DNA from: a candidate division TA06 bacterium SM23_40
Lineage (GTDB): Bacteria; LJUI01; SM1-40
Assembly: GCA_001303705.1 (NCBI GenBank)
Contig: LJUI01000088.1
Coordinates: 1 to 10,070 of the forward strand
Length of the DNA: 10,070 nucleotides
Reading direction: 5' to 3'
Shown here: positions 5,456-10,070 of the stretch, in pieces
How the letters are laid out: each line of letters opens with the position of its first letter
Position numbering within the stretch: position 1 is the first letter of the stretch
Notes under the pieces: model-generated
What the model was told of the DNA's origin: nothing
Database searches by the model: none
What the model saw: only the letters and a program-made list of their open reading frames with translations
Position numbers and translations under genes: made by a program

Positions 5456-5638
5456 GCGGGGGCCCGGAACGACAGGTGCGCCTCTCGTGAGGACCTGGCT
5501 GCTCGCCCTCGAATCGCCCCTCCCTGACGGGCCGGCCTGTGCGAGTCAGAGCGCGGAGGGCACGGACCGGGGCAAAGGCCACAGACTGAGGCGGAGTCCC
5601 GTCTTGTCGAAACAGGGCCGCAGGTGGACGTCATGGGT

Positions 5639-5763
5639 ACTGTTGCCATTCGCATAGCAACAGTCGACAGGGGCAGCGGAATAGTACGCAGGCCCCCGGC
5701 GGCCCCTGGGCCCCAGGGGAGCAGAGATGTAGCAACAGTTAACCCTTGAGTAGAGACTGTTGC
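5639..5763. repeat. Four copies of octamer ACTGTTGC in two inverted pairs, likely regulator-binding array
   Basis: Pair 1 is ACTGTTGC (5639-5646) and GCAACAGT (5657-5664), separated by 10 bases. Pair 2 is GCAACAGT (5732-5739) and ACTGTTGC (5756-5763), separated by 16 bases and facing the opposite way. All four copies are exact. The last ends nine bases before the -35 box at 5773, and relative to a start near 5808 the sites centre at about -48, -72, -147 and -165. That layout is typical of an activator or repressor array with a distal pair that could loop. The only near match I noticed elsewhere is a 7/8 hit inside nadE coding sequence. The binding protein is unknown; the downstream Fis-type-HTH regulator is a natural candidate (inference). 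Confidence 0.75.
5703..5719. repeat. GC-rich imperfect palindrome
   Basis: CCCCTGG (5703-5709) pairs with CCAGGGG (5713-5719) around a three-base loop, or 8+8 around one base. No T-tract follows, so it is not a convincing intrinsic terminator for nadE, although it sits between the two octamer pairs on the nadE side of the promoter and could slow read-through. Confidence 0.35.
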
Positions 5764-5772
5764 ATTTTTCTC

Positions 5773-5801
5773 TTGACAAGTTTTTAGACGTGTGATACAA
5801 T
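5773..5801 (+). promoter_or_regulatory. Near-consensus sigma70 promoter with extended -10
   Basis: TTGACA (5773-5778) is followed after exactly 17 bases by TACAAT (5796-5801), and TG at 5793-5794 makes an extended -10 (TGATACAAT). This is the best promoter in the window. Transcription should start around 5807-5809 and run into the leader with the terminator at 5874-5915 and on to the regulator. Its strength, together with a nearby terminator and the upstream octamer array, suggests tightly controlled expression rather than low constitutive use. Confidence 0.8.
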
Positions 5802-5868
5802 CGCATCTAGAAGTTCGAAGATGTGATTTGTTGATGTTCGGCGTAGTTCAGGAGGATTAGCAGGCAGA

Positions 5869-5898
5869 ATGAGCTGCTGCTGTTCCCGGGACGCGTGA
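5869..5898 (+). CDS. Possible leader peptide MSCCCSRDA with three consecutive cysteine codons
   Basis: ATG 5869 opens a nine-codon frame ending at TGA 5896-5898, reading MSCCCSRDA. A strong ribosome site AGGAGG lies at 5850-5855, with a longish 13-base gap to the start. The frame lies about 60 nt into the predicted transcript. Codons 3-5 (TGC TGC TGT, 5875-5883) form the 5' arm of the terminator hairpin, and the stop codon falls in its loop. Cysteine-run leader peptides that control downstream genes are known in mycobacteria, but always before sulfur genes; the genes here are for polysaccharide. The cysteine run could also be an accident of a CTG-repeat stem. A second tiny frame, MFGVVQED (5834-5860), lies upstream without a good ribosome site. 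Expression is unproven. Confidence 0.4.
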   Translation: MSCCCSRDA

Positions 5899-5915
5899 GG
5901 GGCGGCAGCAGTTTT
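5874..5915 (+). terminator. Intrinsic terminator or attenuator in the leader of the regulator gene
   Basis: CTGCTGCTG (5874-5882) pairs with CGGCAGCAG (5903-5911) with one G-T pair, and the stem can be extended through 5886/5899 to 13 pairs with two more G-T pairs. TTTT (5912-5915) follows directly. It lies about 107 nt after the predicted start site and 190 bases before the regulator gene, so it would either produce a short RNA of about 108 nt or attenuate the operon. AGCAGGCAG at 5859-5867 is partly complementary to the 5' arm and could act as a competing antiterminator (inference). Confidence 0.65.
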
Positions 5916-5937
5916 GTCACATATCGTTACATAGTTC

Positions 5938-5975: not shown

Positions 5976-6173
5976 GTGGGTCGGACAAGCGTCGTTCTTC
6001 GTGTGTTAGGGGCCTCGATTGCAGTAGGAGTCGGGGCCTTTCTGTACTTATTGGGGTCCGACTCGCAAGTGGAACCAACATCGATCGCCGAGGACGTGGA
6101 GGAAGGCGATGATTCCATCGAGAAAAGAGACCGGAGGGAAGACCCGCGAAACAGGCACCGGAGAGCGGAGTGA
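5976..6173 (+). CDS. Possible small single-span membrane protein overlapping the regulator gene
   Basis: A 65-codon frame starts at GTG 5976 and ends at TGA 6171-6173, overlapping the regulator start (6109) by 65 bases in another frame. The translation begins MGRTSVVLRVLG and contains one hydrophobic segment (~V6-G27, ending AFLYLLG), preceded by two arginines and followed by an acidic stretch (~31-48, EDVEEGDDSIE) and a basic tail. This topology looks like a real membrane-anchored small protein, but there is no good ribosome site before GTG, codon use is mixed, and the last third may be just the regulator gene read in another frame. If real, it would be co-transcribed with and translationally coupled to the regulator. 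The family is not recognised. Confidence 0.38.
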   Translation: MGRTSVVLRVLGASIAVGVGAFLYLLGSDSQVEPTSIAEDVEEGDDSIEKRDRREDPRNRHRRAE

Positions 6174-7527
6174 AATTCTACTCGTCGGCCCTGACGGAGA
6201 GGTTGCCTCTCTCCTCGACGGGTTTGGTGCCGGGCAGCGGGTAGCGATCTCTCTGGAAACGAGCCGGGATCGGGCGCTACAGCGCATGAGGCGAGATCCG
6301 CCGGCAGTCGTCCTCATCGGCACGGACGGGCAGATCGAAGAGAGTCTTCTCTTCGTGCAGCGGGCGAAGGAGGCGGCGCCACAGACCGGGCTCGTTGTCG
6401 TTTGCGATCCGACGCAGGTCGGCGTTGCACTCGAGGCATTGCAGATGGGGGTACACGATCTGCTCATCATGCCCATAGAACGTGAGGAACTGGAGAACGT
6501 GATCACGTCTCTGATCTCTCCCGGAGTCGACATGGGGAACGGGCTCCGTCCGGAGGTGCGGGCGGCGTTCCTCGAGTCGAGTCTTGTCGGTGCATCGAGC
6601 GAGATCGCGCAGGTGAAGCGAACGATCCACAAGGTCGCGGACTCCGGATTGAGTGTGCTCATCACGGGAGAGAGCGGGACCGGTAAGGAGCTTGTCGCCC
6701 GGGCACTTCACGCACTCTCCGGACGTGTGAGGGGGCCGTTTGTCAAAGTGAACTGCGCCGCTCTGCCCGATGAGCTTTTGGAGGCGGAGCTCTTCGGATA
6801 TCAGCGGGGGGCGTTCACGAGTGCATACCGCACGAAGCCCGGGAGGTTTGAATACGCCCACGGCGGCACGATTTTCCTCGATGAGATCGGCGAGCTCCCG
6901 CTTGGTGTGCAGTCGAAGCTCCTGCAAGTCCTGGAACAGAGAGAGTTCGTCAGGTTGGGAGGGAAGAGGAGCATCAAGGTAGACGTACGGATCGTGGCGG
7001 CAACGAACCGTCCGCTCGCGCAGGCACTCTCGGAAGGGATGATCCGTGAGGATCTTCTCTATCGAATCAATGAGACGACGATCCACCTCCCGCGGCTCGC
7101 AGACAGGGTCGAGGACATTCCGGTATTAATGGAACACTTTCTCCGGAAATACAGCCTCGAGTTCGGCAAGGAGATGCGGTCGGTCAGTACAGGGACGATA
7201 CGGAGCCTTCTGCAGCACGACTGGCCGGGCAACGTGCGGGAGTTGGAGACATTTATCAAGAAGGTAATCGTCTTCGGAGATGAGGTGGCAGCTATCGGCT
7301 CGCTCGACGTGGGGCAGCGAAACACGACACCCGATCCCGAACAGGTCTCTTCGACGGCATCCCCGTCGCTGAAGGAGATCGGGATCGAGGCCACACGCCG
7401 GGCAGAGCGTCCGGTGATCGTGGAGGCGCTGAACCGCACCCGATGGAACCGCCGTCAGGCCGCCAAGTTGCTCGGCATCAGCTACGGATGCCTTCTCAAT
7501 AAGATCAAGAAGTATGAAATCGAGTGA
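6109..7527 (+). CDS. NtrC-type AAA+ transcriptional regulator with degenerate receiver domain
   Basis: This 472-residue regulator starts at ATG 6109, with GGAGG at 6098-6102 six bases upstream; the frame upstream has no other ATG before a stop at 6025. Residues ~21-135 match a response-regulator receiver in length and pattern (EILLVGPDG, VVLIGTDG, GLVVVCDP, DLLIMPIE), but the phospho-acceptor aspartate position is Gly71, the conserved lysine is Met121, the Thr/Ser site is Cys99 and the acidic pair is lost. The AAA+ domain (~160-395) has Walker A GESGTGKE (187-194), Walker B IFLDEIGEL (Asp258, Glu259) and an arginine-rich sensor region. The sigma54-contact loop reads GAFTSA (234-239) rather than GAFTGA. 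A Fis-type helix-turn-helix ends the protein (NRRQAAKLLGISYGCLLNKIKKY). It probably activates the adjacent polysaccharide genes, without phosphorylation control; both are inference. Confidence 0.92.
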   Translation: MIPSRKETGGKTRETGTGERSEILLVGPDGEVASLLDGFGAGQRVAISLETSRDRALQRMRRDPPAVVLIGTDGQIEESLLFVQRAKEAAPQTGLVVVCDPTQVGVALEALQMGVHDLLIMPIEREELENVITSLISPGVDMGNGLRPEVRAAFLESSLVGASSEIAQVKRTIHKVADSGLSVLITGESGTGKELVARALHALSGRVRGPFVKVNCAALPDELLEAELFGYQRGAFTSAYRTKPGRFEYAHGGTIFLDEIGELPLGVQSKLLQVLEQREFVRLGGKRSIKVDVRIVAATNRPLAQALSEGMIREDLLYRINETTIHLPRLADRVEDIPVLMEHFLRKYSLEFGKEMRSVSTGTIRSLLQHDWPGNVRELETFIKKVIVFGDEVAAIGSLDVGQRNTTPDPEQVSSTASPSLKEIGIEATRRAERPVIVEALNRTRWNRRQAAKLLGISYGCLLNKIKKYEIE

Positions 7528-7647: not shown

Positions 7648-8622
7648 ATGAGATTCACGATGAACCGTCTAGCGCGCATTCTCGTTCCGCCTCTATCCAT
7701 CTGTCTCATCGCCGGTCCGGCCCTGTCCGCGGCGTCTGAGGGAATTGGAAGTGAGTATGTCATCGGGGTCGGCGATGAGCTGGCGGTCGACGTGTGGCAG
7801 GAGCAGAGTCTCTCCTCGACCGCGACCGTGGCGAACGATGGCAAGATCCTGCTGCCGGCGATCGGCCCTGTTGATGCCGCGGGTGAGACCCCATCGGGAC
7901 TGGGGCAGGAGATCGCGCGTCGGCTCTCTAACTTCAACCCGCGCATATCGCAGGTGACGGTGAGGGTAGTCGGATACCGCAGCCGCTCAGTATCGGTACT
8001 CGGGGAGGTAGCATCGCCCGGGCGGTATGGATTCGCCGAAATCCCCGATCTTCTCGCGGTCCTCGGCGAGGCCGGTGGCCCGACACCCGAAGCGCGCCTC
8101 TCGGAGGTCGTGATTGTCCACGGAGATGGGAACGGAGAGACGCGCGAGGTAGTCGATCTCGAACGGTATATCGAAGCGGGCGAACCCTCATCGCTTCCCG
8201 GGCTCAGGCCAGGGGATACGGTCTTCGTGCCGGGAGCCACGGAAGGTGCGAGCCTCGGTCGGAATGTCGTCTATGTGTACGGCGAAGTTCGAGACCCGGG
8301 CATCTATCCTCTGAGCGATGGCGCGGACGTCGTGGAAGCGCTGTTGATGGCCGGCGGAACGACCGAGCAGGCCGACGACTCCGATGTCAAGGTCATATCG
8401 CGCAGCTCTCATGTGAGGCCGCTCCAGATCGATGTGCCGAAACTGATGAACCAGGGCTCGATGGACAGCGTACCGAAACTCCGGCCAGGCGATACGGTCG
8501 TCGTGGGCAGGCGGAGTGAGTTCTGGTCGGGCTTCTGGGATCGTTCGCGGGAAGTGACGCTCATCGTATCGGCGGTCGCTTCGCTCTACTTCAGCTACCA
8601 CATCTACCGGAGTGTGAGATAG
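7648..8622 (+). CDS. Polysaccharide export protein (Wza-like; Poly_export and SLBB domains)
   Basis: This 324-residue protein starts at ATG 7648, after AAGGAGG at 7631-7637. A signal peptide (~1-28, cleavage ALSA before Ala29) sends it to the periplasm. The Poly_export domain (~36-110) begins with the typical YVIGVGDELAVDVWQE, followed by two SLBB domains starting near 113 (SVSVLGEVASPGRYGF) and 206 (NVVYVYGEVRDPGIYPL). A C-terminal hydrophobic helix (~302-320, TLIVSAVASLYFSYHIY) resembles the membrane-crossing helix of Wza. Wza-type proteins form the outer-membrane channel for capsule or exopolysaccharide. Classical Wza is a lipoprotein of about 380 residues; here there is no proper lipobox (Cys19 lies within LSIC), so anchoring must be by the C-terminal helix. 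It is 22 bases from the chain-length gene, its likely partner in the trans-envelope complex. Confidence 0.93.
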   Translation: MRFTMNRLARILVPPLSICLIAGPALSAASEGIGSEYVIGVGDELAVDVWQEQSLSSTATVANDGKILLPAIGPVDAAGETPSGLGQEIARRLSNFNPRISQVTVRVVGYRSRSVSVLGEVASPGRYGFAEIPDLLAVLGEAGGPTPEARLSEVVIVHGDGNGETREVVDLERYIEAGEPSSLPGLRPGDTVFVPGATEGASLGRNVVYVYGEVRDPGIYPLSDGADVVEALLMAGGTTEQADDSDVKVISRSSHVRPLQIDVPKLMNQGSMDSVPKLRPGDTVVVGRRSEFWSGFWDRSREVTLIVSAVASLYFSYHIYRSVR

Positions 8623-8644: not shown

Positions 8645-10070
8645 ATGGCATCGAATGCTGAAGAGCGCGTCGATCTAACCCAGTACTGGCGCATCCTGGT
8701 GCGCCGCAGATGGCTCCTGATGGGGCCGCTCGCGGTCGTCCTCGTGGGCGCCGCAGTTGGCAGTCGACTGGCCCGGCCCGTGTACGAGTCGGGAGCAACG
8801 ATCCTGATACAACCGCGGCAGCCCCTGTCTCGCTCTCTCGAGCAGCTCCTCCTCGGTGACCGCAACCTTGCGAGCCGGGAGAGGGCGAGTGCGCTCGCTG
8901 AGAGAGTGCGAAGCCCTGACCATCTCCGCTCTGTGATCGATGCGCTGGGCCTGGCCAGCGACCCCGATCTCCGGCTGGCGGCGGCTCAGGCGATGGAGGA
9001 TGACCCCGGCGGTCACTCTCTCGATGAGATCATCGAACGGAGGCTCATCGGCCGGCTGCGGGGCATGATTGCCGTGGAATCGCGGGGGGCGAACCTGTTT
9101 CGCATCTCCGTTCGGGGCGAAGATCCTGCGCTGGTACATCGGATCGCCAGGAGCCTGCTTCATGTGATGCAGGAACGTGCGCTGCAGAATGAGTTGGAGA
9201 GGGCGAGCTCGATCCAGCAGTTCAGCGCCGATCAACTTGCGCTGTACCAAGAGCGCCTTGCCGATGCCGAGGAGCGCCTCACGCGCTATCGGAAGGAGAT
9301 CGCCGCCCGGGCGATCGGTGGGACGGTTGTCGACGCCACAAATCTGAGCCAGGCCTCGGCGCTCGTCGACCAGTTCGAAAGCGAGATCGCTGCTCTCGAG
9401 GCAGAAATCGAGGATTACTCCGCAACGGTAGCCGCGCTGGGACAGCGGCTCGCCGCAGACGCAGGGATCGAAACCCAGACGGATGAAGCACTAAGGATTG
9501 CCCGTCGCCTCGTGCCCCTGTTCATAACGGCCTCATGGATGGACCCGGAGGTGATGCACCAGAGCGCGGAGCTGGCGCGCACCAGGGACGAGATCCGCCA
9601 GGCACTCACTCGCGCCGCTGCCGTGGAGGTCGCGACGGGCGAAGAAGAGGACGCGATCGCCTGCGCGCTCGCCGCAGTTGATCTGCGTATCGCCAAAGCG
9701 AAGCGGGCGACGATCCGGGGGCTGATCTATCAGTACCGTGAATCTGTTGTAACGGCCCCGGAGGATGATCTCACCCTCGCTCGCCTCGAGGCAGAGGTGG
9801 AGAGGAACCGAGAGATATACAACACGCTACTCGAACAGAGTGGGGCTGCAGAGCTCTCCAAGGCTGTGGGAGAACTGGAGATCGAGCGGAGTTTCGAGAT
9901 TCTTGTATCTCCTTCGCTCCCCCTGAGTCCGGTGAGCCCGGATCGCAAGAAGGCGTTATGTCTCGGCGCCCTCGTCGGCCTTGTGCTCGGGATTGTGGCT
10001 GTCTTCGTGGTGGAGTACGCAGACCGGTCGTTGAAGAGTATCGAAGAGGCCGAGGAGTATCTCGAACTGC
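8645..10070 (+). CDS. Polysaccharide chain-length determinant / Wzz-Wzc family protein, cut by right edge
   Basis: The frame starts at ATG 8645, eight bases after AAGGAG (8631-8636), and runs 475 codons to the window edge without a stop. It begins with the Wzz pattern DLTQYWRILVRRRWLL and a first membrane helix (~23-42). A large periplasmic part follows, with predicted coiled coils near 180-235 and 245-280, then a proline-rich SPSLPLSPVSPDRKK motif and a second membrane helix (~436-456). After it come ADRSLKSIEEAEEYLEL residues, the usual lead into the cytoplasmic part. Plain Wzz is about 330 residues, so this longer form is either an exosortase-type chain-length protein (about 500) or the N-terminal half of a tyrosine autokinase of the Wzc type; the kinase domain, if any, is outside the window. 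It sets chain length and couples synthesis to the Wza-like channel encoded just upstream. Confidence 0.92.
   Translation, partial: MASNAEERVDLTQYWRILVRRRWLLMGPLAVVLVGAAVGSRLARPVYESGATILIQPRQPLSRSLEQLLLGDRNLASRERASALAERVRSPDHLRSVIDALGLASDPDLRLAAAQAMEDDPGGHSLDEIIERRLIGRLRGMIAVESRGANLFRISVRGEDPALVHRIARSLLHVMQERALQNELERASSIQQFSADQLALYQERLADAEERLTRYRKEIAARAIGGTVVDATNLSQASALVDQFESEIAALEAEIEDYSATVAALGQRLAADAGIETQTDEALRIARRLVPLFITASWMDPEVMHQSAELARTRDEIRQALTRAAAVEVATGEEEDAIACALAAVDLRIAKAKRATIRGLIYQYRESVVTAPEDDLTLARLEAEVERNREIYNTLLEQSGAAELSKAVGELEIERSFEILVSPSLPLSPVSPDRKKALCLGALVGLVLGIVAVFVVEYADRSLKSIEEAEEYLEL

Follow-up and report, generated by a model that had tools for sequence, protein, structure and literature searches.

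An intrinsic-terminator-like hairpin in the leader of a regulator and polysaccharide-export operon, overlapped by a nine-codon cysteine frame that is most likely incidental

The 3′ part of the window – the whole stretch of 10,070 nt of DNA that was analysed – carries a gene for a sigma-54-dependent activator (hereafter the regulator), followed by genes for a polysaccharide export protein and a chain-length-determinant or Wzc-like protein (Table 1). For the regulator, the nearest NCBIfam model is that of the PEP-CTERM-box response regulators, matched with 353 bits, which is below the cut-off of 502.6. Upstream, on the same strand, lies a gene for NAD synthase, and the leader ahead of the regulator contains a sigma-70-type promoter, two palindromes, two terminator-like hairpins (T1 and T2) and a putative frame of nine codons, three of which specify cysteine. 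An earlier, sequence-only reading had described T1 and this frame as an attenuator preceding exopolysaccharide genes; the export genes are indeed there, but the first gene behind the terminator encodes a sigma-54-type activator. A possible 65-residue frame runs across T2 and into the beginning of the regulator gene; it has no Pfam match, and its codon score is not diagnostic.

Table 1. Features of the leader and of the genes behind it, in window coordinates
Feature	Position	Strand	Details
Palindrome ACTGTTGC-N10-GCAACAGT, probable operator 1	5639..5664		
Palindrome GCAACAGT-N16-ACTGTTGC, probable operator 2	5732..5763		
Sigma-70-type promoter TTGACA-17-TACAAT, extended -10	5773..5801	+	11/12 matches
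AGGAGG, Shine-Dalgarno-like	5850..5855	+	13 nt before ATG 5869
Alternative hairpin, possible antiterminator	5854..5886	+	about -16 kcal/mol; T1 5′ arm shared, ATG in loop
Putative frame MSCCCSRDA*	5869..5898	+	ATG AGC TGC TGC TGT TCC CGG GAC GCG TGA
Hairpin T1, intrinsic-terminator-like	5874..5917	+	arms 5874-5887 / 5899-5911, tail UUUUGUC
Possible 65-aa protein	5976..6173	+	GTG start, no clear Shine-Dalgarno, one hydrophobic segment
Hairpin T2, terminator-like	6009..6046 (hairpin 6009-6038)	+	tail UUUCUGU
Sigma-54-dependent activator	6109..7527	+	AAA+ domain PF00158, Fis-type HTH
Polysaccharide export protein	7648..8622	+	Poly_export, SLBB
Chain-length-determinant/Wzc-like protein	8645..10069	+	open frame; sequence read by eye; runs off contig end

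At the level of sequence, the reading of T1 as an intrinsic terminator that lies in the leader of this regulator/exopolysaccharide operon is well supported. Its predicted fold has a free energy of -25.7 kcal/mol (z -4.3; none of 200 shuffles equalled it), and its stem of 13 bp, eight of them GC pairs, is followed directly on the 3′ side by a U tract, as is characteristic of intrinsic terminators – albeit a short one, with four U residues in a row and then GU. T2 folds with a z of -3.6. Background statistics were drawn from about 1.05 Mb of stretches from the same genome, in which genes were called by open-frame length only; this sample contains 57 intergenic terminator-like sites, compared with 12–20 in Markov shuffles, and on a combined stem-plus-tail score T1 ranks seventh among 66 intergenic sites. 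The promoter/terminator scan did not list T1, because the T1 loop exceeds the length that the scan allows. With its z of -4.3, in a genome enriched for such hairpins, the intrinsic terminator that had been claimed ahead of the operon is thus borne out as sequence. The leader as such yields no leader or riboswitch match in Rfam at the gathering score.

A candidate terminator in a 5′ leader is ordinary in kind. A survey exists of intrinsic terminators that end transcription prematurely in the 5′ leaders of bacteria (PMC2965389), and the present arrangement shares with them the succession of a promoter, a short leader, a U-tailed hairpin and then a gene, as well as the genome's use of such hairpins; it differs from those surveyed in having no recognised sensing part.

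The promoter obtained the top score among 662 intergenic pieces of 220 nt from the 1.05-Mb sample. Its position places the likely transcription start near 5808, so that a product ending at T1 would be about 110 nt long; T1 follows the promoter at a distance of about 70 bases. A scan for sigma-54 promoters returned matches at a frequency not above chance, none of them in the leader. The two palindromes are probable operators, as judged from their sequence, and would be bound by a protein that we infer. The centre of operator 2 lies some 60 nt ahead of the inferred start, and the operator 2 pattern has this single match in the whole genome; the 8-base half-site ACTGTTGC occurs in 16 copies in 1.05 Mb, and the only four intergenic ones all lie in this leader. 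The palindromes are built from the same half-site, in opposite orientations, and their centres are 96 bp apart.

A strong terminator directly behind the strongest promoter of the sample is also what one might expect of a small RNA gene, in which the promoter and T1 would mark the ends of an independent RNA of about 110 nt acting in trans, with the regulator transcribed from an undetected promoter of its own. Several observations make this an unlikely account: the RNA has no Rfam match, and in a search of 59 genomes – the bacterium's own, which is the sole member of its phylum in the set, and 58 from other phyla – the leader DNA had neither a match in the other phyla nor a second copy in its own genome. 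Nor is there an above-background promoter-like site between T1 and the regulator: the best promoter score of this DNA is 6.14, below the median of 6.44 for intergenic pieces, and read-through is therefore the likeliest source of regulator mRNA. The regulator could also, and this would count against early termination as the mode of control, be transcribed from a promoter that belongs to a type outside the scan.

Alternatively, the main function of T1 might be to insulate against or to terminate NAD synthase transcripts, without a regulatory role for the regulator operon. The same-strand orientation of that gene and the lack of an obvious better terminator in 5456–5730 fit this idea, which we nonetheless regard as quite improbable: T1 lies 437 nt past the end of the NAD synthase gene and downstream of the strong promoter, whose transcripts it would stop too. 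A CsrA-controlled leader was also considered and was rejected, there being no PF02599 match in this genome of about 90% completeness.

The reading that we prefer, while holding the case for it to be evenly poised, is that T1 limits expression of the downstream regulator and polysaccharide export genes by early termination, with control set mainly at the promoter. Starting from three features of the sequence – the promoter, the palindromes and the terminator – one would arrive at a model in which transcription terminates in the cell, some of it reads through and a protein binds the palindromes, as follows. RNA polymerase would start near 5808 from the very strong sigma-70 promoter, with a protein on the two ACTGTTGC palindromes probably setting the promoter's output; most transcripts would stop at T1, after about 110 nt, with T2 as a backup stop at about 235 nt; and the fraction that passes the presumably leaky T1 and T2 would become regulator mRNA. 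The shortness of the U tract and the overlap of T2 with the possible 65-residue frame speak against this reading. Were T1 modulated at all, ribosome occupancy of the AGGAGG/ATG region would be the first candidate, without amino-acid specificity. If T1 acts in this manner, the polysaccharide operon stands under a very strong promoter combined with an early terminator, which is a known arrangement.

What had drawn attention to T1 was the frame MSCCCSRDA, which was described correctly as regards its coordinates, its reading frame, its Cys codons in the 5′ arm and its stop codon (5896–5898) on the loop side of the hairpin. Cysteine accounts for three of its nine codons. However, the 5′ arm of T1 is a CUG repeat, and a run of identical residues therefore arises in any frame, the three frames reading SCCCSRDA, AAAVPGTR and LLLFPGRV. 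When the T1 hairpin was kept fixed and the 64 nt of leader upstream of it were shuffled, an ATG frame ran over the T1 arm in 48% of the shuffles, and it included the CCC run in 26%. The terminator and the promoter exceed chance expectation, and the Cys run falls within it.

The ribosome-binding site, which had been called strong, is so only in part: its AGGAGG is perfect, whereas its spacing of 13 nt from the ATG falls into the background tail of the spacings found in this genome (mode 4–10). Among the upstream shuffles, an ATG frame with a 5-of-6 Shine-Dalgarno match at 3–14 nt appeared in 8.7%, and in 4.7% the CCC run was present as well; a perfect AGGAGG appeared in 4.9%, and in combination with an ATG frame at 3–14 nt in 0.6%. 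The site is thus modestly above chance, in a post hoc sense, as its rarity stems from the perfect AGGAGG, a feature noticed after the fact. Since a perfect AGGAGG is uncommon in the shuffles, some support remains for a translated leader. In the 1.05-Mb sample, 42 of the 66 intergenic terminators have some short frame over an arm, and for seven of the 66, T1 included, an arm-covering short frame is preceded by a Shine-Dalgarno match of at least 5 of 6; the other six such frames contain no amino-acid runs of the T1 kind. Most likely, the nine-codon frame is incidental.

These results bear on the proposal that the leader is a cysteine attenuator, in which a shortage of charged tRNA-Cys would stall ribosomes at the Cys codons, prevent T1 from closing and increase exopolysaccharide expression. 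Some evidence does lean towards it: three consecutive Cys codons stand within a frame of only nine, the long open frames of the genome sample, 306,821 residues in all, contain the tripeptide CCC just four times, and a ribosome stalled at these codons would cover the T1 arm. Against it stand the CUG-repeat origin of the run and the poor Shine-Dalgarno spacing. In amino-acid operon attenuators, moreover, a distance of more than 20 nt separates the terminator from the leader gene (PMC4824070), whereas here the stop codon falls within the hairpin itself (5874–5911). The genes behind such attenuators make or use the amino acid that is sensed; here they encode a sigma-54-type activator and polysaccharide export proteins, without a link to sulphur. 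An antiterminator above chance was not found either, as 257 of 1000 shuffled upstream leaders paired as well as the candidate hairpin at 5854–5886. The claim is accordingly not well supported, and we consider cysteine-specific attenuation very improbable.

The cysteine supply of the bacterium was considered too. No PALP-family enzyme (cysteine synthase, threonine synthase, threonine dehydratase or TrpB) was found in the roughly 90% complete genome, in a search whose controls were found in 14 of 14 cases. The apparent lack of a cysteine synthase might favour cysteine sensing, insofar as the genome may depend on imported cysteine; yet the absence of the whole family suggests broad amino-acid auxotrophy, which speaks neither for nor against such sensing at this leader. 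That a genome of 2.9 Mb should have no detected PALP-family enzyme is an observation in its own right.

A ribosome anywhere on the frame, from start to stop, would cover the T1 arm, and the classical attenuator mode is therefore impossible for this nine-codon frame. The sequence-only reading had itself raised the doubt that any ribosome on the frame would mask the stem, and the geometry of the frame bears this doubt out. If the frame matters at all, the signal would be translation rather than cysteine. The leader might then sense translation as such: a ribosome starting at the ATG at 5869 would cover the 5′ arm with the polymerase still close by, T1 could not fold and the operon would be read. 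Termination would then report poor translation initiation, with no special role for cysteine. We regard this reading as doubtful. Besides the geometry, the rare pairing of a perfect AGGAGG and an ATG frame that covers the arm is in its favour, as is the finding that in E. coli a ribosome close to a stop codon keeps a terminator from acting (PMC4824070). The 13-nt spacing, a stable hairpin that begins 5 nt after the ATG and the fact that T1 is only one of seven intergenic terminators with a Shine-Dalgarno-led short frame over the arm count against it. A further variant, in which this uncultivated, deeply branching bacterium would possess a minimal attenuator, with ribosome loading on a stem-nested frame controlling the regulator and the Cys codons adding cysteine sensitivity in an organism that seemingly lacks the usual synthase route to cysteine, strikes us as scarcely credible.

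Several known systems invite comparison. In the ampC attenuator of E. coli, the leader frame overlaps the terminator. The same is true of the pyrBI attenuator (PMC4824070). As in these two systems, the frame at the present locus runs into the terminator, so that translation as such would block termination; unlike in them, the otherwise perfect AGGAGG is poorly spaced from its ATG, no pause site or U-run sensor was recognised, and the genes are different ones. Among upstream frames with cysteines, CruR is copper-responsive and acts through Rho-dependent termination; it encodes a long protein of the DUF2946 type, in which CXXC and RAPP motifs occur (PMC9426467). Like the present frame, CruR is an upstream frame with cysteines, and it controls transcription of the genes that follow; the present leader, unlike CruR, has no DUF2946, CXXC, RAPP or Rho-dependent termination. 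Rho itself was found in the genome. The polycysteine leader frames of mycobacteria, which are leaderless, are reportedly cysteine-responsive, as described by Canestrari and colleagues in 2020 (cited in PMC13236596). They, too, are short upstream frames with consecutive Cys codons; here, in contrast, the leader is long, the frame overlaps an intrinsic terminator and a polysaccharide regulator lies downstream. A cysteine-responsive leader of the present type would be new, but its key feature is one frame in three of a CUG-repeat stem, and the case carries a warning that repeats in a terminator arm can mimic leader peptides with amino-acid runs.

A search with the regulator returned at least 80 loci, with a best-segment identity of at most 48% among the matches listed. 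None of the 80 loci has an export gene near the regulator, among the matches listed; as regards the loci of other genomes, only contig C635 of genome G057, again among the matches listed, has an export gene near a regulator, and the DNA upstream of the regulators on that contig contains, by eye, nothing similar to the leader. The bacterium's own genome encodes a second sigma-54-type activator (G000:C136:19422-20822), 49% identical to the product of 6109–7527; on its contig this paralogue is preceded by only about 155 nt, in which no similar leader was seen.
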